Source: Ereboglobus sp.
Lineage (GTDB): Bacteria > Verrucomicrobiota > Verrucomicrobiia > Opitutales > Opitutaceae
DNA length: 64,000 nt
Assembly: GCA_029974595.1 (NCBI GenBank)
Contig: JARKRC010000056.1
Location: 124,001 to 188,000, forward strand
Direction: 5' to 3'
In this document: positions 2,565 through 13,104 of the stretch, one piece after another
Position numbering within the stretch: the stretch's first letter is position 1
Layout: each line of letters opens with the position of its first letter
Position numbers and translations under genes: made by a program
Notes under the pieces: generated by a model
Database searches by the model: none
Told to the model about the DNA's origin: nothing
What the model saw: only the letters and a program-made list of their open reading frames with translations

Positions 2565-5500
2565 TTACCAGCGGTAGTTGATGCCGAGGTTGAGGCCGTA
2601 GCCGGTGATAGGGCCGCCGGTTTGCATGGAGCCGTCGGCGTAAACGTCGATGCGCTTGCTGAGGCGCACGGGCACGCCGAGGGTGAAGAGGTAGCTGTCG
2701 CCGCCGAAATCCTCGCTGACACTTGTGTTGTTCACGGTGACCGCCGCGATGCTGCCCCTGAACTCGTAGAGGAAGTGCGCGCTGACATAAGGGGCGAGGG
2801 AGATTCTGTCATTGACGATGATGACCTTGCGCAGGCCGGCGCCAACGCGGCCCTCGAGGGAGGAGGGCCTGTTGATGCTCATGTTCTCCGGGCCGAAGGC
2901 ATAATCGCGGCCGCTGGCATCGTTCATGTTGTTGATCTTGCGATTTTGATAGATCAATTGCGCTTGCGGGGTGAGCGCCCAGTTTCTGCCAAGATCGTTG
3001 ATCTTGGCGACGCGGAGCATGGCGCCCCATGTGTAGCCGTCGGCAGACATGTGCCTGCGCCCGACGGTGACTTTGTGGCTGTCCCATGAATACCGGAGGG
3101 CGGCGTCGATCTGCCAGTTTTTGACGGTGTGGGCGGAGATGTAACCGCCAATGCCGGTGGCGATGAGGTCGGCGCTTGTTTTGTTCGGGAGGTTGGCACT
3201 GGCATCGGTGCGGTCAATGAAGCCGCCGTAGGTGGTGAAGGCGTTGCCGACCTTGTCGCCGCGTTTGTCTATGCCGGCCTGGAAGCCCCAGGCGGTGCCG
3301 TCGGAATTGGGGAAGAGGTCGCCGTCGAGTTTGTCGGCGCGGTAGTAGGTTTGCCCCCAGACTTGGAAGCCGGTGGTTTCGCTGCCCGGGAGGGCGTTGG
3401 CGGCGTGCAGGTAGTCGAGGCGCTGGGAAAGGGATCCAAAGGCAGCGCGCCCGACGATGTTGCCCATGACATTGGCGGCGAGGGCGGCGGGCAGCTCGGC
3501 GGCGGTGGTGGCGATGAGTTCAATGGTGCCGCCGTCATATTCGAGGACGTAGTCGATGCCGTGCAGGATGGCGCGGTTGAAGCCCTGGCCGTCATCGAGG
3601 ACAAAGGAGCCGGGTGCAAACTCGCCGGTGTCGGCGATGACCAGCGGCTCCATGTCATGAATGATGAGGGTCTTGTTGGAGCGATGGTCGGTGAGGATGG
3701 CGCGGATTGTGGTGGTGCCGGAGATATTGGCGGCATTGGCAAAGGAAAGCTGGCCGGAAAGGGTCTTGGTATTGTCGGCGGTGACGATGCTGAGGTGGAC
3801 ATCGGAGCCGGGCGCGGCGGTGTAGGCGCCGTTGATGCGGAGCCTGCCGCCGGTAACGCCGTTTTCGCCGAGCCACAAGGCGCCGTGGTTGGTGAGCGTG
3901 CCGACTGCTAGGCTGTAGCCGTTGAGGGCGAGATTCGCGCCAGCCCCGATGGTGTGGGCGGAGTTGGGGGAGAAGGCGTTGTCGGAACCCGCCGCGAGGG
4001 TGCCTTGGAGGACATTTGTCGGCCCGGAATAGCTGGAAGAGGTGGATGTGCTGAGGACAACCGTGCCTTGGCCGACCTTTGTGATGCCGCCAGCGCCCGC
4101 AATCGGGCCGTCAATTGTGAAGTCCGGGGCGGGCGCGCTGTAGTAGTGTTCCTGCAAGGTGATGTTTCCACCGAGGCTGATGCCTGTGGATGCCAGCGTG
4201 CCGGAGCCGTTGATTGAGGCGTCCGTGCCAAGCGCGAGGTTGCCCATTTGGAGGATTGCGGCGTTGTCGGTGGCGCCGGATGCGTCAACGGTGATGGCGC
4301 TGCCCGGGGCCATCGTGACGTCACCCCTGATGCGCCCGACGCCGACAATGTTCGCGCTGGCGCCGATGCTGACGTTACCCGCGACTTCCGAGGTGTCGTG
4401 AACCATGAAAAGGGTGCCGTTGTTTATCGTGATTGATCCGGTGGCGATGGCTCCATCGCCAATGTAGAGGGCGATGCCGGCGCCTGTGCCCGCGATGTGG
4501 CTGGAGCCGTAGGTGACGCCGTCTGCGATGACCAATGCGCCCTCCTCGATTTCGGTTTTGCCGGTGAAGCCGGTGAAGTCGCCGTCCACGGCCAGCGTGC
4601 CGGCGCCTGTTTTGCCAAAAATACCGCTGCCAGTCATCGCGCCGGCAAAGGTGTCATCGGTGGCCTGGTCAATGATGGTCCTGCCGTTGTTTGTGATGCT
4701 GGCGTCGCCAAGGGTCATCACATTGCCAATGAGCGTGCCCTGCTGGACGGCGATGCCGCCGACGAAGGTGTTGGTCTCGTTGTTGGCGAGGGTGACGGTG
4801 CCGGTGGTGTTGATGGTGAAGATGCCTGTCGGCGGGGAGGCGCCAAAGCTGGAGCCGGTGGTGCCGAGGCTGTCCTTGTCCACCACGAGGCGTCCGCCAG
4901 TGAAGGTGTAGCTGCCATTGCCGGTGATGGACATTTCGGAGGCGATGACACCCACGGGCATGATGTCGATAGCCTGGCTGCCCGAGGCGCCGAAGATGAC
5001 TTTGTCGCCGCTGACAAATTTGGTGTCGCCGCCGCCCCAGTTGATGGTGGAGGAGTCCCACTTGCTGTCGGTCGTGCCGGTCCAGCTGACGACGTGGTTG
5101 ATTTTTTCGGAGATGAGCAGGAGTTCGTTTTTGGCGCTGTTGAGGCCATAGGCGACAGTGGAGCGTCCGCTGAGCGTGGCGCCGCCGTCCTGCGTGGTGA
5201 TGATGGCGCCGGGGGCAACAAGGCTGTCCGAGAAAGTGCCGCTGGTGAGCTTGATGAGGGTAAAGGTGCCGCTGAGGATGTTGACGAGGTCGATGGTGTT
5301 GGTGGCGCTGCCGAAGGTGGCGCTGCCGGCTACAATGGTGTCGTGGCCCGAGGCATACATGTCATGTCTGAGCGTGGCCGCGCCGCCGAAGCTGAGCGCG
5401 CCGGTGATGGTGAGCGTGGAGGAATTGGTGACGGTGGCGTCATTGTGCGTGAGGCCGACCTGAAGCGCGCCGCTGCCGGCGAAGGTGAGATTGCCGGTGA

Positions 5501-7214
5501 TGAGGCCCGAGGCGCCGAAGGCGCCGAAGGCGGAAACAGTGACATTGCCGGCGCAGTTGTAGTCGCCGATGAAAAGGCCACCGCCGCCGACATTGATGCC
5601 TCCGCTGAGGCCGGAGAGATCGCCCGAGAGGGTGAGATTGCCCGCGCCAGTCTTGTTGATGCCGGAATTGCCGGTGATCGCGCCGGAAAGCGCGACATTG
5701 CCCGCGCCGGTGTCAAAGGCGAGTTGCAGGCCGCTTTGCAGGGTGATGGTGTGGGCGAGCGCGAGGGAGGCGGCTGTGCTGGCCAGGGAGCCGGAGGTGA
5801 TGGTGAGGTTTTTGCCCTCGCCCGTGCCGATTGCGTTGGCATGGCCGAGGGTGAGGAGGGCGCCACTGAAGGTGGTGTTGCCGCTGACGGTGTTGTTGCC
5901 GGAAAGGGTGAAACTGCCGGGGGTGGTTATGATGAGGTCCGAGGCCGTGAGCTGGCCGGAGAAGACGGCGGCGGTGGTGGTGTTGATTGTGGCCGCGCCC
6001 GTGCCGAGATTGACCACGCCCGCACCGGAGAACTGGTTGAGTGTCTGGTTGAGATTGATCGCGGTGAGCGTGGAGGAGGCGGCGACGGTGATGGCGGAGC
6101 TGGCGGCGAGTTGGTTCTGGGCGGTGAGGATGAGCGCGCCGGCATTGATGACCGTGGAACCGGTGTAGGTGGTGCTGCCGGCGGTGGCGTTGTTGAGTGT
6201 GAGCGCACCTGCGCCGAGCTTGGTGATGCCGCCTGCGCCGCTGATGGAGACAGTGCCGGTGATGGCGATATCCCTGCCATTGCTGTCGATGAAGGCACCC
6301 TCGCCGATTGTGTTGATATTCAAGATTCCAGTGATGAAATCAGCATTTGCGCTGCCTGAGGCCCGCAGGATGCCGCCGTCGAACAACAGATAACCTTTGG
6401 AAGTACTGCCGAAAACAGCGCGTGTGAGCGCAGTGCCGCGACCATTCGTGTCATTGCCCCTCAAGGTAAGCGTGCCTGTGGCAGTGGCGGTATTGCCGAA
6501 TCTTATTGTTCCGCTGGCCACCGATAGCAATCCATGATCCTTGACCTCCACGGTGCTGGTGCGCGCGCCACTATGGGTTCCGGCGTAAGTGATATAGAAT
6601 ACGTTGCTATGGGTCATCTCGAAGATGCCGTGATCATCAATAATCACCTGCGATGTCGTATCAGGCCTTTCTCCCGCGACATATAAACCGGCATTCATTG
6701 TCAGTCTTGCCGAGCCTGTGATGTTTATGATGCCTGTTGTATTCGGCCTGATTCCTGCCCCTAAGTTGGAGGTATTATGTATCAATGTGGCGGTGTCTTT
6801 TAATATCAAGACCCCCTGACCGTAGTTTCCTACCAACATGGTGTTGTTTGTGGTAAGTGAGCCGTTGCCTTCTATCGTAAGGGTGCCGGAGGACGTCACT
6901 GCCTCGTGGCCAATGGTGAGGGCTGCGGTTGTGGCTGAAACGCCCGCGCCTATGACAACGTTTGCCTCCTGAAGCCCTCCGTTGGTGGCTCTTCCGATGA
7001 AAGTGGGATCGACGTTGGTGGGCACGCTGCCGGGGGACCCGTTGTCGACAATCCAATTGGACGGGTCATTCCAACTTATGCCGTCGCCAGCGCCTGTCCA
7101 AATGAGGTTCGCCGAATGGGCAATGGGCGGGCACAGCATGATGGCGATCGCCGCCAGTATGATGTTTCGGGGAGCCTGCCACGGGGTGATCAATTGGTTA
7201 ATTCGTTTTTTCAT
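2565..7214 (-). CDS. Autotransporter protein with beta-solenoid passenger and C-terminal beta-barrel
   Basis: 1549 residues. There is a signal peptide (residues 1 to about 35, ending AHSA). A very long passenger follows, made of autotransporter-associated beta-strand repeats (for example TKLGAGALTLNNATAGS and KTGAGNLTLSGDLSGLSG). The last 280-290 residues look like an autotransporter outer-membrane barrel, starting near GFQVWGQTYYRADKLDGD, with alternating amphipathic strands and the terminal aromatic signature GLNLGINYRW. By family knowledge this is a type V secreted surface protein whose passenger is exported through its own barrel. Substrate or partner is unknown; adhesion or glycan contact is a guess from its place behind a glycan-degradation gene set. 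It lies 98 bp after the FAH-family gene and 22 bp before the next autotransporter gene. The passenger contains the segment duplicated in the downstream gene. Confidence 0.93.
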   Translation of the reverse strand: MKKRINQLITPWQAPRNIILAAIAIMLCPPIAHSANLIWTGAGDGISWNDPSNWIVDNGSPGSVPTNVDPTFIGRATNGGLQEANVVIGAGVSATTAALTIGHEAVTSSGTLTIEGNGSLTTNNTMLVGNYGQGVLILKDTATLIHNTSNLGAGIRPNTTGIINITGSARLTMNAGLYVAGERPDTTSQVIIDDHGIFEMTHSNVFYITYAGTHSGARTSTVEVKDHGLLSVASGTIRFGNTATATGTLTLRGNDTNGRGTALTRAVFGSTSKGYLLFDGGILRASGSANADFITGILNINTIGEGAFIDSNGRDIAITGTVSISGAGGITKLGAGALTLNNATAGSTTYTGSTVINAGALILTAQNQLAASSAITVAASSTLTAINLNQTLNQFSGAGVVNLGTGAATINTTTAAVFSGQLTASDLIITTPGSFTLSGNNTVSGNTTFSGALLTLGHANAIGTGEGKNLTITSGSLASTAASLALAHTITLQSGLQLAFDTGAGNVALSGAITGNSGINKTGAGNLTLSGDLSGLSGGINVGGGGLFIGDYNCAGNVTVSAFGAFGASGLITGNLTFAGSGALQVGLTHNDATVTNSSTLTITGALSFGGAATLRHDMYASGHDTIVAGSATFGSATNTIDLVNILSGTFTLIKLTSGTFSDSLVAPGAIITTQDGGATLSGRSTVAYGLNSAKNELLLISEKINHVVSWTGTTDSKWDSSTINWGGGDTKFVSGDKVIFGASGSQAIDIMPVGVIASEMSITGNGSYTFTGGRLVVDKDSLGTTGSSFGASPPTGIFTINTTGTVTLANNETNTFVGGIAVQQGTLIGNVMTLGDASITNNGRTIIDQATDDTFAGAMTGSGIFGKTGAGTLAVDGDFTGFTGKTEIEEGALVIADGVTYGSSHIAGTGAGIALYIGDGAIATGSITINNGTLFMVHDTSEVAGNVSIGASANIVGVGRIRGDVTMAPGSAITVDASGATDNAAILQMGNLALGTDASINGSGTLASTGISLGGNITLQEHYYSAPAPDFTIDGPIAGAGGITKVGQGTVVLSTSTSSSYSGPTNVLQGTLAAGSDNAFSPNSAHTIGAGANLALNGYSLAVGTLTNHGALWLGENGVTGGRLRINGAYTAAPGSDVHLSIVTADNTKTLSGQLSFANAANISGTTTIRAILTDHRSNKTLIIHDMEPLVIADTGEFAPGSFVLDDGQGFNRAILHGIDYVLEYDGGTIELIATTAAELPAALAANVMGNIVGRAAFGSLSQRLDYLHAANALPGSETTGFQVWGQTYYRADKLDGDLFPNSDGTAWGFQAGIDKRGDKVGNAFTTYGGFIDRTDASANLPNKTSADLIATGIGGYISAHTVKNWQIDAALRYSWDSHKVTVGRRHMSADGYTWGAMLRVAKINDLGRNWALTPQAQLIYQNRKINNMNDASGRDYAFGPENMSINRPSSLEGRVGAGLRKVIIVNDRISLAPYVSAHFLYEFRGSIAAVTVNNTSVSEDFGGDSYLFTLGVPVRLSKRIDVYADGSMQTGGPITGYGLNLGINYRW
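4655..6320. repeat. Diverged tandem copy of an autotransporter passenger segment (copy 2)
   Basis: Partner of the copy at the window start. It covers the middle third of the complete autotransporter gene. The offset drifts by only about 18 bases over 1.5 kb, so few insertions or deletions have accumulated since duplication. Edges are approximate because they were judged by eye. Confidence 0.8.
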
Positions 7215-7312: not shown

Positions 7313-8116
7313 CTATTCCTCAAGGGCGACGGGGTTGGTGAGCTGGCCGATGTTTTCTATATCAACGGTGACGATGTCGCCGGGTTTGAGCCAGCGGGGG
7401 GGCTTGGCGGCCATGCCGACGCCGTGGGGGGTGCCGGTGATGATGACCGTGCCGGCGAGGAGCGTCGTGCTGGCGCTGAGGAATTCGATCAGCGCGGGCA
7501 CGTCGAAGATCATGTCGTTGGTGTTCCAGTCCTGCACGGGCTCGCCGTTGAGGAGGCTGCGGATGCGCAGGGCGTTGGGGTTTGGGATTTCGTCGGTCGT
7601 GGTGATGCAGGGGCCGAGGGGGCAGAAGGTGTCGTAGTTTTTACCGCGGGTCCACTGGCTGCCGCCGCGCTTGATCTGCCAGTCGCGCGCACTGACGTCG
7701 TTCGCGCAGGTGTAACCGAGCACATATTTGAGAGCGTCGGCTTTGGAGACGTTTTTGCAGGTTTTGCCGATGACGACACCGAGTTCGCATTCATAGTCCA
7801 CTTCGTCGCTCTTTTGCGTGACGGGAATGCAGATCGGATCGCCGGGATTCTGGATGGTATTAGGGCCTTTTATGAAGAGGATAGGATACTCGGGAATTTT
7901 TGCACCGGTTTCGTTGGCGTGGTGGCGGTAGTTCAGGCCGATCCCGAGGACGGTCGTCGGGACGATGGGCGCGAGGAGCTTGGCGGGTTTTATAATAACG
8001 CCCGTGGGAGTGAGGCCGGCGAGGAGTTCCCCGGAGAGTTGCTCGACGGCGCCGTCGGCGAGCTGGCGGCCGTAGTGGGTCGTGTTGGCGGCGTCTTGGT
8101 AGCGGACGATTTTCAT
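7313..8116 (-). CDS. Fumarylacetoacetate hydrolase (FAH) family protein
   Basis: 267 residues, the usual length for single-domain FAH-family hydrolases or isomerases. The family core is clear: GIGLNYRHHANE near residues 58-69, then VDYECELGVVIGK around 106-118. The acidic residues E109 and E111 fit the divalent-metal E-x-E ligands, with a third ligand probably at D140 in ANDVSARD. The end motif is GTPHGVGMA. Members cleave or isomerise 2,4-dioxo acids such as acylpyruvates, 2,4-diketo-3-deoxy sugar acids or homoprotocatechuate intermediates; the substrate cannot be read from sequence. Its place downstream of the glycosidase and lyase genes makes a 2,4-diketo-3-deoxy sugar acid attractive (inference). 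It lies in the same minus-strand run but is separated from the GH36-like gene by a palindromic repeat. Confidence 0.9.
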   Translation of the reverse strand: MKIVRYQDAANTTHYGRQLADGAVEQLSGELLAGLTPTGVIIKPAKLLAPIVPTTVLGIGLNYRHHANETGAKIPEYPILFIKGPNTIQNPGDPICIPVTQKSDEVDYECELGVVIGKTCKNVSKADALKYVLGYTCANDVSARDWQIKRGGSQWTRGKNYDTFCPLGPCITTTDEIPNPNALRIRSLLNGEPVQDWNTNDMIFDVPALIEFLSASTTLLAGTVIITGTPHGVGMAAKPPRWLKPGDIVTVDIENIGQLTNPVALEE

Positions 8117-8134: not shown

Positions 8135-8221
8135 AACCGCAGATGGACACAGATGGACGCAGATATGAAATGCAGTATGTTGGTTTTAATAATCTGCGTT
8201 TATCTGTGTTCATCTGCAGTT
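8135..8221. repeat. Extragenic inverted repeat between GH36-like and FAH genes
   Basis: Two arms of about 30 bases, 8135-8164 and 8191-8221, are imperfect reverse complements; each has the internal pattern GCAGATG-ACACAGAT-ACGCAGAT. A 26-base loop separates them. It fills almost the whole intergenic space. It resembles short palindromic repeats that are scattered in many genomes. In the message it would form a large hairpin between the two genes and could end or attenuate transcription. Confidence 0.85.
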
Positions 8222-8224
8222 GTA

Positions 8225-10561
8225 TTATTTCGTTTTTGTTTTGGTGATCGTGACTTTGCCGTTTATATAGGTGAGGAAGGTGAAGGTGGCGGGGTGCATG
8301 CGCACTTCCGGGCGGAGGGTGACGGCGGCGCGGTTGATGGTTTCGATTTCCTGGCCGTTGCTCAGGTTGAGATCGGTGCCGATGAGTTGCGGGGTTGTTG
8401 TGTTTTGCAGCGGCGTGAGGCGGATCACGCCGGCGGCGTGCGCGGGAAGATTTTGTGAGATCGATTCATCCGCTTTATATACACCGAGGAAGGTTTGCGC
8501 CTTGAATTCGAAGGCGGCGTAGCTTTCAGCAGTTGGAAGATCGGGGATGTCGGAGGGTGAAAAGGAGAGTGTCTTTGATTCGGCTCCATTCCAGTTGGCA
8601 AGGGTGACGACAGCCCATGGGTAGGACGAACCCTCTGTGTGAGCCGCAGAATACACCGGTTCAGCCTGAGGCTTCGCCCTACCAAAATGGCTTACAAAAT
8701 ATTCGGGCACGTAGTCGGTCCATTCTTTGAAGGGCTTTGCGACAGGTGCGTAGGTGGGGATCACCATTTTGTATAAATCGTAACGGTCCTGATCAAGTTC
8801 ATCGAGTTTCTCGGAGACCTGGATAACACCGCCGCCGAGGAATCTATACACAACGAGCGAGAAGGCTTCCTCGTCGGTGAAATTGCCCATCGAGATGTGA
8901 TTGCGGGTGGATCGCCATTTGTTTTCGAAGGCGCGGCGGCGGAGTTGCAGCGCGTCTTGGTCGCTGGTCCAGAGTCCGCCTTGGTCATAGAAGACGCGGG
9001 CAAAGGTCTGGCGCATGCGGAGCCGGTAGCGCGTGGCGGGGGCGTTGGGTTCGAGCGGATCCCAGTGGCCGCGCACGTCGGAGCCGGAGCGCATGATGTT
9101 CGCAAAGCCGGCGCAGGCTTCGTAGAGTGCGCCCCACACGCCGATGATGGCGTCGTCGCCGGAGGCACGACGGATGATGTCGATGCCGCGCTTGAAGGCT
9201 TGGGCGCGCGTGGCGGTGCGGTCGTGGAAGCGCGCGTTTTCGTCGAGGAGCACGACGCGGAGGAAATCGAACTTGAGGTAATCATAGCCCCAGGCGCGGA
9301 ACTTGCCGCAGAGTTCGATGAGAAACTTTTCCGCCGAGGGCGCGGTGGGGTCGAGGATGTAGCACGGTTCCATGAAGGGCATGATTTTGCCTTTGATGGG
9401 TTCGCCGTTCGCGTTTTTCAGAGGGAGATCGGGATATTTTTTCAGCGCGTCGCACGCGGGGTCGAGGAAGAAGGGGCAGCTCCAGAGGCCGGGAGTGAGT
9501 CCGGCGGCGCGGATTTCGGCGGCCATTGCGGCCATGCCTTCGGGGAAGCGGGCGGTGTCGGTGTTCCAATCGCCAAATAGGTCGTCCCAGTTGTAGTCGA
9601 TGAGGAAGGTGTCGAACGCGACGGGGCGTTTTTTCAGCTCGGCAAGGTCGGCGCGGATGTCGGCTGCGGTGATTTCGGGGCCGTAGAAATACCAGGTGCA
9701 GAAAATGTTTTTGAGAGGCGAGAGGCGCGCGCCATAACGGGTTTTGATGCGGGCAACGTGATCGGCGAGGAGGGCGTCGCAATTTTTTCCGGTTTGTATG
9801 TAGAGCGTGTGTGTTTCGCGCGTGGCGCCGGGCGGAACGAGGACGCCGTCGAACTCGGCGGTTGTATCCAGCGAGTGAAGCGCGGCGCGTTTGGAGTCGA
9901 GGGTCAGCGCGATGTCGCTCAGGTGTTCGGTTTGTCCGTCGAAGCCGATGAAGACTGCGGCGTCGGCATTATTGTCGGGGATGATGACCAGCGCGGGATC
10001 GGCATGGAAGGAAATGCCACGTTTGGCGGCTTCAACGGGATCGTCGGTTTCCTTGATGCCCTTGGAGTTGTCAGTGGCTGCGTCGCGCGTGGCTTCGCTG
10101 TCGTTGACCGGGCGGAAGGGGCCGGGAATATCGTTTTTATGGCGTGCGAGGCGAAAAACCGTCCAGTTTGCGACAGCTTGGTTTGCAACGAGGAGATTTT
10201 GCTGTCCGGTGATTTGGAGGGGAACGAGTGCGCGGAGATGAATCGGCGTGGCGCGGGTGTTGGTGACGGAGAGGCGAATGGCGTAGCCGGTGGAGTTTGG
10301 TAGCGCGGTGATGGTGCGGCGGAGTGTGAGGCCGGAGAGAGTGGCGTTGCCGTCGGCGTCGAATTGCGGGGCGGGGAGCGCGGGTTCGTTGTCGAGAATG
10401 GGCGCGGGGGTGGTGTACGTGAGGCGGGTGTTGTTGGGGAGCGCGAGGGTTTCGGCGCGGGCGGCGAGGGGGAGAAGCGCGAGGAGTAAGAACAAGACGA
10501 TTGCGTGATATGGAGTGCGGTGACTTGTCACCGCTTTGGACGAGCCGACTTGTCGCTGCAT
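8225..10561 (-). CDS. Secreted GH36-like (alpha-galactosidase type, clan GH-D) glycosidase
   Basis: 778 residues from the chosen ATG at 10561. Residues 1-36 form a signal peptide (core IVLFLLLALLPL, cleavage after AARA). An N-terminal beta-sandwich-like part is followed by a TIM barrel with FLIDYNWDDLFGDW near 319-332. YLKFDF puts the likely nucleophile at D432, and MRSGSDVRGHW puts the likely acid/base at D495; both fit GH36/GH27-like retaining glycosidases. The exact sugar is unknown. The start is ambiguous. An ATG at 10813 overlaps the stop of the upstream gene (ATGA) and is preceded by AAAGGA, but starting there puts 84 residues of repeat-encoded sequence before the signal peptide. I chose the ATG next to the signal peptide. 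A palindromic repeat at 8620-8683 is translated within the C-terminal part. Confidence 0.85.
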   Translation of the reverse strand: MQRQVGSSKAVTSHRTPYHAIVLFLLLALLPLAARAETLALPNNTRLTYTTPAPILDNEPALPAPQFDADGNATLSGLTLRRTITALPNSTGYAIRLSVTNTRATPIHLRALVPLQITGQQNLLVANQAVANWTVFRLARHKNDIPGPFRPVNDSEATRDAATDNSKGIKETDDPVEAAKRGISFHADPALVIIPDNNADAAVFIGFDGQTEHLSDIALTLDSKRAALHSLDTTAEFDGVLVPPGATRETHTLYIQTGKNCDALLADHVARIKTRYGARLSPLKNIFCTWYFYGPEITAADIRADLAELKKRPVAFDTFLIDYNWDDLFGDWNTDTARFPEGMAAMAAEIRAAGLTPGLWSCPFFLDPACDALKKYPDLPLKNANGEPIKGKIMPFMEPCYILDPTAPSAEKFLIELCGKFRAWGYDYLKFDFLRVVLLDENARFHDRTATRAQAFKRGIDIIRRASGDDAIIGVWGALYEACAGFANIMRSGSDVRGHWDPLEPNAPATRYRLRMRQTFARVFYDQGGLWTSDQDALQLRRRAFENKWRSTRNHISMGNFTDEEAFSLVVYRFLGGGVIQVSEKLDELDQDRYDLYKMVIPTYAPVAKPFKEWTDYVPEYFVSHFGRAKPQAEPVYSAAHTEGSSYPWAVVTLANWNGAESKTLSFSPSDIPDLPTAESYAAFEFKAQTFLGVYKADESISQNLPAHAAGVIRLTPLQNTTTPQLIGTDLNLSNGQEIETINRAAVTLRPEVRMHPATFTFLTYINGKVTITKTKTK
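8620..8683. repeat. Palindromic repeat inside the GH36-like coding sequence
   Basis: The ends GGTAGGACGAACCCT and (reverse complement) GGTAGGGCGAAGCCT match at 13 of 15 positions. The 64-bp unit is translated in frame as roughly 21 residues, RAKPQAEPVYSAAHTEGSSY. The frame continues undisturbed on both sides (VSHFG before, VVTLANWNG after), so the host protein has tolerated an insertion. Confidence 0.75.
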
Positions 10562-10566
10562 TCCAT
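10510..10566. repeat. Palindromic repeat at the 5' end of the GH36-like gene
   Basis: Imperfect inverted repeat with arms starting ATGGAGTGCGGTGAC and ATGGAATGCAGCGAC (on opposite strands), 15 of the first 20 positions matching. It contains the chosen start codon and encodes the first residues of the signal-peptide n-region. It is the first of several palindromes in a row. Confidence 0.8.
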
Positions 10567-10577
10567 AAAAAATCGCG

Positions 10578-10630
10578 ATAGCATGACCAGTCATGCTATG
10601 AACAGAGGTGGCTAGCCACCTCTGTTCATA
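10578..10630. repeat. Two abutting perfect palindromes
   Basis: 10578-10599 is a 10-bp inverted repeat (ATAGCATGAC / GTCATGCTAT) with a 2-base centre. 10597-10630 is a perfect 34-bp palindrome centred on GGCTAGCC. Together with the flanking elements they form a cruciform-prone cluster in the 5' part of the GH36-like gene. Confidence 0.9.
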
Positions 10631-10656
10631 AAGATGTCCAAAGAAGGTTCCGAGGA

Positions 10657-10792
10657 ACGCTTGCGCAGGGAGCGGCGGCTTTCCAGCCGCCGGACGCGAC
10701 GTAGTCGCGCCGTTCGCGCGTTGGGAAAAGCTTTTTTGGCGAGGCTTCGCCTCGCCCGACGACAGGAATGTCGCCGCTCCTTGCGCAAGCGT
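10657..10792. repeat. Composite palindromic element with 28-bp terminal inverted repeats (BIME/MITE-like)
   Basis: The ends (10657-10684 and 10765-10792) are reverse complements at 25 of 28 positions, beginning ACGCTTGCGCA. Inside are at least four small hairpins: GGCGGC-GCCGCC, GACGCGAC-GTCGCGCC, GGCGAGGC-GCCTCGCC and CGACA-TGTCG. There is no coding capacity for a transposase. This architecture is like bacterial interspersed mosaic elements, or a non-autonomous element mobilised in trans. Confidence 0.85.
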
Positions 10793-10809
10793 GTTTTTCG
10801 AGAGCGTTT

Positions 10810-13104
10810 TCATCGCCTCGCGTTCCTTTCCTGCACAAAGAACACCGCCGGCTTGTCGGTGATTATGTATTCGGTGACGGTGATGTCGCTGCCGACGCAT
10901 TTTATTGCGACGCGGTGTTTGCCCGCGGTGAGCGTGCCGAGCGCGTTTAGCCAGATGACGCGTTCGGCTCCGGTGCCGACGTTCCATTGATAATCAGGTT
11001 CGATGGAGGCGGTCGTGGTTTTGCCGTCGAGCGTGATGTCGAATTCTTGCTTGCCGTGCCACGGGGTTTTGATGCTGGCACGGACGAGGAGCGCGTAGGA
11101 ACGGGTCTTTTCGGTTGTGAATGTTGTGGCGGTCGGGAGGAAGTAGATAGCGGTCGGCGGGCGTTTCTGCTCAGTGTAGTTTCCTTTGGCGTAAACGGAG
11201 ACGGGACGCGAAAGGCCGTCGGGCGTGCGCACGAGAAACGCGCCTCGGAAGACGGGGCGGCCCGCGAGTCGGGCGGGGTCGGCGGTGACGGTGAGTTGGA
11301 TTGTTTCGCCGGGGGCGAGCGTGCCTCGGGCGGGTGTCACGGTGAACCAGTCGAAGACGTTGTTCTGGCGGATTTGGAAGGCGATGGGAGTGTTGCCGGT
11401 GTTTTTGACGGCGACGTGCGTGCTGCCGCCAGTAGCGGGGAAATTGATTTGCGCGGGCGCGGCGGAGAGGGCGAGGGGGCGGGCAGGGATGTCGGTCGCG
11501 CCGTTGATGAATGCGCCGAGGTCGTCGCCTGCGCGGGTGATGCCGGGGACTTCGACGGCTTTGGCGCGCGCGGGGCTGTCGGGTGCGAGCCGGTAGTCGC
11601 CGGCGGCGGGCGCGGCGAGTTTGGGATCAGCGGCGAGGGCGTTTTTCTCCTGTCCGTATTTGCGGAAGGCGGCGATGAATCGTTCCGACGACGGGCGCGC
11701 ACGGTTGACCCAGAAGAGGTCGTTGTCGAAGTTCTCGGTGCGCGCCCAATCGGCGGGTAAGCGGGATTCGTTGCAGACGAAAATATTGTTGCGCATGGTG
11801 CCGAGCGCGGCGGTGGCGGGTGTGGCGCTGCCGTAGTGGCCGTAGGCGCTGGAGCTGCGGCCGTGGCCGTGGAATGTATTATTGTATATAAGGCGTTTGC
11901 CGTGCTGTTCGAGGCGGTGGCTGTTTTTGAGGAACATGAGGGCGAGGCCGGATTCGTCGCCGGGGTTCGCGATGAGGTTGCCGATGGCGTATTGGGGACC
12001 GATGAGGCAGGGGCCGAAGCTGATGCCGCAGAGGGTGCCTTCGACTTTGTTGCCGATGAAGCGGAGGTTCATGCCGCCGCCTTCGAGTTCGATGCCGTCG
12101 TCGTTACCGTAGGCCATGTAGTTGCCCAAAATGTCGCTGTCACGGTAGAGGCCGCCTTTTTCGTTGGAGTTGCTGTTGCATTCGATGACGTCGTTCCAGC
12201 GGTGTTCGTCAGAGCCGACGAGGTCGTTCCAGCGGATGACGTTTCCGCCGAGTGTGTATTCGGCGACGATGGCTTCGGGGCCGGCGGGGTGGGAGAATGT
12301 CCAAGCGTTGGAGCGGCCGCGGGGGTCGTGGATGTAGCAGCGTTCGACGACGGTGTTGGCGCTTTTGCGGATCATGATGGCGCCGTCGAGGTTGATGAGG
12401 TTGCCTTCGGGGTCGCGGTATTTGCCGCGCGCGCCAGTATTGTCGAATTGTTGTTCGCCGGTGCGGCCCCAGCCGGAGAGGTCGCAGTTGAGAATGCGGA
12501 TGTTTTCGGAGTTTTCGACGAGGATGGCGTGACGTTTGCCGCCGCTGAGCGTGATGTTTTCGAGGATGATGTAAGCGGCGTTGCGAAGGGTAATGGCGGC
12601 GTCTTGCGCGGTGGTGTCGGTGTGGAGCGGGGCGGCGGCGGTGTATTTTATCCAGCCGTCGGGCGCGCCGTGTTCGGTGATGACGAGGCCGTTTTCGGGG
12701 AGCGTGCCGAGGGGGATGCTTTTTGCGATGGGCGGCGCGCTGGTCCAGGTGCGGAAGGTGGTTTGTTCGACAACGCGAGCGTCTTTTGCGGAGAGGATGC
12801 GGATTTGGTACGTGGTGTCTTCCTGTAAATTGAAGAGGCTGCCTTTGTGGATTTTTGCGGGTTGGTCGCAGATGGGCGGGTGCGCGGCGCGCCATGCGGT
12901 TTCGTTTTCATTTTTATATTCGACGCGAAAATCGGCGTTGGTTTTTGGATTATAATAATAACTGCAATTATTAAACGAGGGGACTGTTTGGAGTTCGCCG
13001 GGTGCGAGCGTGGCGAGGTCGGGCAGCGGCGTCGCAGAGCTCCGCCCTCCAGCGCAGGGGAGCGCGGGCAGAAGAAGGGAGAGGAGTAAGACAGCGCGGG
13101 GCAT
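10810..13104 (-). CDS. Secreted right-handed beta-helix protein (polysaccharide lyase-like)
   Basis: 764 residues with a short signal peptide (hydrophobic residues 4-16). Roughly 20-130 looks like a fibronectin-III-type beta domain (DTTYQIRILSAKDARVVE). 150-470 shows parallel beta-helix rungs with Asn ladders (AAYIILENITLSGGKRHAIL, ENIRILNCDLSGWG, DSDILGNYMAYGNDDGIELE). 540-640 is an Ig-like segment of the BACON/ASH kind (INFPATGGSTHVAVKNTGNT). The C-terminal 120 residues are another beta domain. Such proteins are commonly extracellular polysaccharide lyases or glycan-binding factors; the catalytic residues cannot be assigned. The stop codon overlaps an in-frame ATG of the next gene (ATGA at 10810-10813). 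The start lies 35 bases after the TonB receptor stop, so cotranscription is likely. Confidence 0.88.
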   Translation of the reverse strand: MPRAVLLLSLLLPALPCAGGRSSATPLPDLATLAPGELQTVPSFNNCSYYYNPKTNADFRVEYKNENETAWRAAHPPICDQPAKIHKGSLFNLQEDTTYQIRILSAKDARVVEQTTFRTWTSAPPIAKSIPLGTLPENGLVITEHGAPDGWIKYTAAAPLHTDTTAQDAAITLRNAAYIILENITLSGGKRHAILVENSENIRILNCDLSGWGRTGEQQFDNTGARGKYRDPEGNLINLDGAIMIRKSANTVVERCYIHDPRGRSNAWTFSHPAGPEAIVAEYTLGGNVIRWNDLVGSDEHRWNDVIECNSNSNEKGGLYRDSDILGNYMAYGNDDGIELEGGGMNLRFIGNKVEGTLCGISFGPCLIGPQYAIGNLIANPGDESGLALMFLKNSHRLEQHGKRLIYNNTFHGHGRSSSAYGHYGSATPATAALGTMRNNIFVCNESRLPADWARTENFDNDLFWVNRARPSSERFIAAFRKYGQEKNALAADPKLAAPAAGDYRLAPDSPARAKAVEVPGITRAGDDLGAFINGATDIPARPLALSAAPAQINFPATGGSTHVAVKNTGNTPIAFQIRQNNVFDWFTVTPARGTLAPGETIQLTVTADPARLAGRPVFRGAFLVRTPDGLSRPVSVYAKGNYTEQKRPPTAIYFLPTATTFTTEKTRSYALLVRASIKTPWHGKQEFDITLDGKTTTASIEPDYQWNVGTGAERVIWLNALGTLTAGKHRVAIKCVGSDITVTEYIITDKPAVFFVQERNARR

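Follow-up and report, generated by a model that had tools for sequence, protein, structure and literature searches.

A 64-bp REPIN, assigned from its sequence to the GTAG-REP superfamily of non-autonomous mobile elements, lies in frame within the gene for a GH36-like glycosidase at positions 8620-8683 of the DNA analyzed here (a stretch of 64,000 nucleotides, referred to as the window). It is highly probable that this REPIN inserted into a linker of the GH36-like enzyme, with a REP-associated tyrosine transposase (RAYT) as the probable agent of its movement, and that selection spares the copies that fall in harmless linkers while their encoded residues drift nearly neutrally. The insertion would have entered a short linker in the lineage of the window's own genome. 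Such elements would insert widely, and most of the copies inside genes would be removed by selection; those spared would read GGT AGG GCG (encoding GRA..., a proline-rich and predicted disordered peptide), be stop-free, have a suitable length and sit in a permissive linker.

The element and its host protein

The element reads GGTAGG...CCTACC, and its terminal bases match at 13 of 15 positions. Both of its REP units start with GTAG and contain a short stem-loop, as GTAG REPs do. In the minus-strand ORF 8225-10987 the REPIN is read without a stop as 21 whole codons from GGT to TAC (8683-8621), with base 8620 opening the following codon. This confirms the earlier note, which had described a 64-bp unit with inverted ends and an open frame; the encoded peptide is given in Table 1. 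When folded as single-stranded DNA, the REPIN had a z of -3.1, a value equaled by 2 of 200 shuffles. A search of the 64-kb window with three REP subtypes, allowing up to 5 mismatches, detected no second copy. At the settings used, a general inverted-repeat search came back empty, and an Rfam scan of the window returned tRNA only.

Table 1. Positions in the window of the REPIN, its parts and the host ORF
Feature	Positions	Strand	Remarks
REPIN, paired inverted GTAG REPs	8620..8683	-	in frame; encodes GRAKPQAEPVYSAAHTEGSSY
REP unit 1, GTAGGGCGAAGCCTCAGGCTGAACC, AGCC/GGCT stem type	8658..8682	-	2 mismatches to working consensus
REP unit 2, GTAGGACGAACCCTCTGTGTGAGCC, ACCC/GGGT stem type, partly decayed	8621..8645	+	3 mismatches to working consensus
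12-nt spacer separating both 25-nt REP units	8646..8657	.	by position
Host ORF, GH36-like glycosidase	8225..10987	-	Pfam Melibiase and solved alpha-galactosidases

The host protein matched Pfam PF02065 (Melibiase) at 33.2 bits (cut-off 27), and a GH31 profile was also above threshold (28.2 bits, cut-off 23.5). It further matched the alpha-galactosidases 1zy9 and 5m0x, which we take to belong to GH36, with an E of about 5e-29 over query residues 227-507 only. Homology begins at ORF residue 161-201, and the gene probably starts at a coordinate below 10987. The 920-residue ORF has an upstream extension of approximately 178 residues before ETLALPNN (window 10453-10987) that overlaps the ORF 10810-13104, and the annotated start is therefore probably too early. 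An AlphaFold model of the protein (three sequences) had a mean pLDDT of 49.9, with approximately 23 around the insert, and was set aside. The loop may be surface-exposed, and the enzyme presumably still works with its insert.

Two other features of the neighborhood were seen by inspection. An imperfect inverted repeat (CCGCAGATGGACACAGATGGACGCAGAT ... ATCTGCGTTTATCTGTGTTCATCTGC) was recognized by eye at window 8136-8222, between the ORF 7313-8116 and the GH36 gene, where the automated repeat search gave no report; a similar stretch also occurs near the element at locus L010. A 1549-residue minus-strand ORF at window 2565-7214 is autotransporter-like by reading only.

Homologs of the GH36 protein were rare. 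Two of 57 relatives (E up to 1e-30) and 2 of 372 members of the order (E up to 1e-60) had one, and each of these counts includes the own genome; 2 further contig loci also carried one. Between a flanking F and a flanking W the window protein has 22 residues, and the aligned homologs have 8 (L041), 8 (L044), 13 (L042) and 5 (L043). Because homologs carry 5-13 residues at this place, the 64 bp appear to have replaced or absorbed a short linker rather than simply been added to it. The earlier note had read the segment as an insertion that adds about 21 residues. The four homologs found without these residues support the insertion, and neither outcome that would speak against it occurred, as further copies of the unit are also present; the count of 21 codons holds as well, while pure addition does not. 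The GH36 gene had no match in three same-genus genomes (one of them 65% complete), so an empty site at the DNA level is missing for this gene.

Distribution of the repeat family

The own genome (G000), two sister species of the same genus (G001 and G003) and a member of another genus (G029) are referred to by these labels. With up to 3 mismatches, a 21-base core of the REP had 25 matches in the 4.07 Mb of the own genome and 0 for the reversed control. The inverted ends are thus not a product of chance. The 25 matches were grouped by hand into 15 sites; the window copy used as a DNA query gave 22 matches. A 25-mer, again with up to 3 mismatches, was present in 12 of 57 relatives, own genome counted, and its matches numbered 66 in G001, at least 75 in G003, 79 in G029, 85 in G031 and 20 in G030. 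A looser pattern gave 112 matches in G003, and the G003 site list was drawn from the matches listed. Four stem subtypes were distinguished by reading (AGCC/GGCT, ACCC/GGGT, ACCG/CGGT and ATCC/GGAT); complementarity is kept among them via paired changes, which fits the expectation for a REP hairpin.

The site set comprised 15 loci of G000, 44 of G001 and 75 listed ones of G003, some of them overlapping. Among the matches listed, the three genomes held 129 sites, which consisted of 94 inverted pairs and 35 singles. The intergenic copies that the earlier note had expected were thus found, in that 72 of the 94 listed pairs and 9 of the 15 own-genome sites are outside genes. A G precedes GTAG at 141 of 144 non-gene ends (scored as outer G/C) and at 42 of 44 in-gene ends of the listed pairs.

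These results bear on whether the palindrome could have arisen in place, in a linker that was always coding and that gained its inverted ends through a local event (duplication or inversion) rather than from a mobile element. In the window copy the two REP units differ in subtype and are imperfect, as a local origin might produce, but mixed-subtype pairs also exist elsewhere (C5 and C40). Moreover, the 25-nt units occur paired and inverted at the 15 own-genome sites and at dozens more in the sister species, and their outer G/C is conserved. Since the units are dispersed through the genome, a local origin was rejected, and we regard it as extremely improbable.

The REPIN is instead probably moved by a RAYT, to judge from the sequences around its relatives. 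In G003, the ORF at L070:1592-2047 is flanked by two elements of this REP family and matched both Pfam Y1_Tnp (26.8 bits, cut-off 23) and NCBIfam REP_Tyr_transpos (NF047646, REP-associated tyrosine transposase; 94.4 bits, cut-off 80). G003 therefore has the associated RAYT that characterizes GTAG REPs and REPINs, and this RAYT may be the one that moves the element. In the own genome, this REP lies beside none of six Y1-transposase loci. Direct matches of 2-8 bases beside the 94 pairs, as a target-site duplication would leave, were not above those of shuffles; a 1-base direct match was seen in 34 cases vs 22.5 expected (p 0.001).

Reading frame and length of the in-gene copies

The author judged in-gene status on three grounds: an open frame, codon scores and Pfam. 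In-gene pairs made up 22 of the 94 listed, or 15 independent sites after those common to several species were merged; 6 of the 11 G000 pairs are among these independent sites, and the remainder are in G001 and G003. The hosts are the GH36 gene (own genome, the window copy) and genes of the following types: HrpA-type helicase, P-type ATPase, Mfd-like, ABC-F-like, penicillin amidase (three species), MetH (two species), UvrD-like, RecF-like (two species), SNF2, ferrochelatase (two species), RsmA-like, DinG-like helicase, and MnmG with two sites (two species each). Where these names go beyond the Pfam and NCBIfam labels, they are ones that we take to apply. For the ferrochelatase and MnmG sites, codon scores were weak on at least one side, and the assignment came mainly from family matches. 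The MnmG genes of the two sister species (L090, L123) carry two REPINs, of 60 and 90 bp, in different places.

All 15 listed independent in-gene copies are read in phase 2 (GGT AGG GCG, encoding GRA..., or a decayed form of it). Phase 1 meets TAG within GTAG, and the open frame required for an in-gene assignment excludes it by construction. Outside genes, among 144 readings of the 72 listed pairs, 124 were stop-free in phase 2, 117 in phase 0 and 4 in phase 1; given these rates, the chance of finding 15 of 15 in phase 2 is about 4e-5. Peptides read in phase 2 are proline-rich and have a mean predicted disorder of 0.27, vs 0.10 for the arginine-rich phase-0 peptides, on a disorder scale whose values we assume.

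The lengths of the elements were similarly restricted. In-gene units are 62-98 bp with the outer G and C included, and their lengths from GTAG to CTAC are 2 mod 3 in 12 copies, 0 mod 3 in 3 and 1 mod 3 in none. The 72 listed non-gene pairs have 30, 4 and 38 lengths of 2, 0 and 1 mod 3, respectively. For lengths of 1 mod 3, the comparison of 0 of 15 in genes with 38 of 72 outside gives a Fisher value of 8e-5 among the listed pairs.

Two elements lie at the margin of these counts. The frames of L056 (phase 0) and of L108 (phase 2) run open into a gene; both elements were nonetheless judged to be upstream of its true start (presumably MIPN... and MKKIG..., by homology) and were kept among the 72 non-gene pairs; if L056 is counted as in-gene, phase 2 is used by 15 of 16 independent copies. 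Seven further sites (L058, L060, L078, L079, L109, L134 and L147) had coding scores on both sides and were out of frame or had stops. They were considered as disrupted genes, a reading that was rejected, as by inspection all of them sit in short gaps between same-strand genes.

The use of one frame could also reflect a preference of insertion for targets in a given codon phase, rather than selection after insertion. The G that precedes GTAG at nearly all in-gene ends could set the phase in this manner. The same G is, however, found at nearly all non-gene ends, so it is seemingly part of the element. Selection is also indicated by the length filter, and no more than 22 of the 94 listed pairs are in genes despite the mostly coding nature of bacterial genomes. 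A target preference is accordingly considered unlikely, and selection after insertion is the favored source of the frame rule.

Selection on the inserted peptides

Some inserts are common to sister species and are old enough for selection on them to be measured. The sample consisted of six inserts in five genes, common to G001 and G003. Across the 160 codons of these inserts there were 9 synonymous and 28 nonsynonymous changes (dN/dS 1.11), while the 3086 codons of their flanks had a dN/dS of 0.18 (Fisher 7.5e-6 on rounded counts). About half of the changes were in MetH, and with MetH removed the excess was weaker, at an approximate Fisher value of 0.03 on hand-rounded counts. Shared inserts in the two sister species are therefore under little or no amino-acid constraint.

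These values argue against an adaptive peptide, that is, a loop kept because it improves or regulates the enzyme, although the GH36 insert is outside the sample. Some in-gene copies are common to species with their frame kept, as would be expected of a useful loop, and 6 of the 14 host genes are of helicase or repair types (a raw count with no background computed), a bias also seen in the available part of PMC3733652. However, different repeats occupy these linkers elsewhere among the genomes, as described below, and an adaptive role is on balance quite improbable. The earlier note had proposed protein evolution by exonized palindromes. Capture in frame is borne out, but innovation is not: because the shared inserts show little or no constraint, the captures look mostly like tolerated filler. 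The family thus offers a natural experiment on selfish DNA becoming protein, with 15 listed independent in-gene copies of one family in three sister species, and it suggests that such captures are for the most part tolerated as filler rather than sources of innovation.

Linkers occupied by different repeats

Alignments were read for linkers that contain different repeats in different genomes. Among 30 HrpA loci, one linker holds, in one frame, this REPIN in G000, a different GTAG palindrome in G033 and a related subtype in G029; several other HrpA loci have longer linkers of other make-up. In Mfd, the first linker contains REPINs of G000 and G029 at about the same place. Further on, G029 has a second REPIN; at that place G000 carries GTGG-type repeats, within a stretch absent from the sister species of G000. 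Among 30 MetH loci, the REPIN is present in G001 and G003 and a GTGGCACGGGC-type palindrome in G000; in the remaining 27 loci no such repeat was recognized at this site, and one of them, L246, stops short of it. SNF2 carries the REPIN in G001 and a different inverted repeat at the corresponding place in G003, while RsmA has short tandem repeats in G003 and G002 and GTGGCACGGGC units in G000.

The last of these repeats belongs to a second palindromic family, GTGGCACGGGC-N-TCC-N-GCCCGTG, seen at own-genome loci L226, L269, L019:959-1019, L013 and L036 and located inside the MetH-, RsmA- and Mfd-like genes of that genome. It had 50 matches in 25 of 276 loci, a number raised by overlaps among the loci; the reversed control had 0. 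The protein-search matches L226 (MetH of G000), L197 (Mfd of G003) and L198 (Mfd of G001) were each reported with one in-frame stop, TAG or TAA, which may lie at an alignment edge.

A scan of the HrpA, Mfd and MetH loci (30 each) located G029 pairs at two Mfd places and G029 REPs at two HrpA places. All four of these in-gene copies (L219, L172) lie within ORFs of 1217 and 1486 residues and are read in phase 2; three were new from the scan, and the copy in the HrpA linker was known from an earlier alignment. In this group of bacteria, permissive linkers of a set of housekeeping enzymes may be recurrent landing pads in which one palindromic family or another settles in frame, depending on the species. 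The GTAG REP ends may themselves have been shaped so that one frame encodes a disordered linker, which would let the element survive in genes as a portable spacer. This remains a tentative possibility, made slightly more likely by the G029 copies. The HrpA-, Mfd-, MetH-, SNF2- and RsmA-like proteins are candidates for having insertion-tolerant linkers.

Comparison with known systems

The capture of GTAG REPs within genes is already known. The available text of PMC3733652 (2013) describes them inside genes of Opitutus terrae, in which they are most numerous, and of other bacteria. According to the same text, the in-gene units encode 20-30 residues, over half are dimers or grouped, DNA-repair genes are among the hosts, flexible linkers are suggested as the reason for tolerance, and Xanthomonas recB carries different REPs at about one place. 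Those REPs and the window family are alike in the GTAG end, the stem-loop, the alternative complementary stem residues, the occurrence as dimers and the RAYT; the likeness is one of description. The single reading frame, the length filter, the dN/dS of the inserts, their near-neutral drift and the refilled linkers are findings of the present analysis that the available text of PMC3733652 does not report. A literature search on REPs or palindromes in Verrucomicrobia or Opitutaceae returned nothing apparently closer than that paper, and the portion of PMC12306157 at hand added nothing on Verrucomicrobia.

Bacterial MITEs, as outlined in the accessible part of PMC10969869, are short, have inverted ends and no coding capacity, and occasionally form in-frame fusions. 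The window family is similar in being short, non-coding by itself, bounded by inverted ends and fused in frame. It is unlike MITEs in its REP-type ends and RAYT, and may also differ in target-site duplication, as one of at least 2 bases was not found beside the 94 pairs.

Rickettsia palindromic elements (RPEs) were reportedly described by Ogata in 2000 and 2002. In the available portions of PMC10969869 and PMC3767692, RPEs are palindromic repeats situated in frame in unrelated genes of Rickettsia, as the window family is in its own hosts. Their printed length is 100-150 bp, vs the 62-98 bp of the in-gene units here, a comparison of lengths alone. By these descriptions, the window family appears to differ from RPEs in that both of its ends are GTAG REPs and that a sister species has a RAYT gene.
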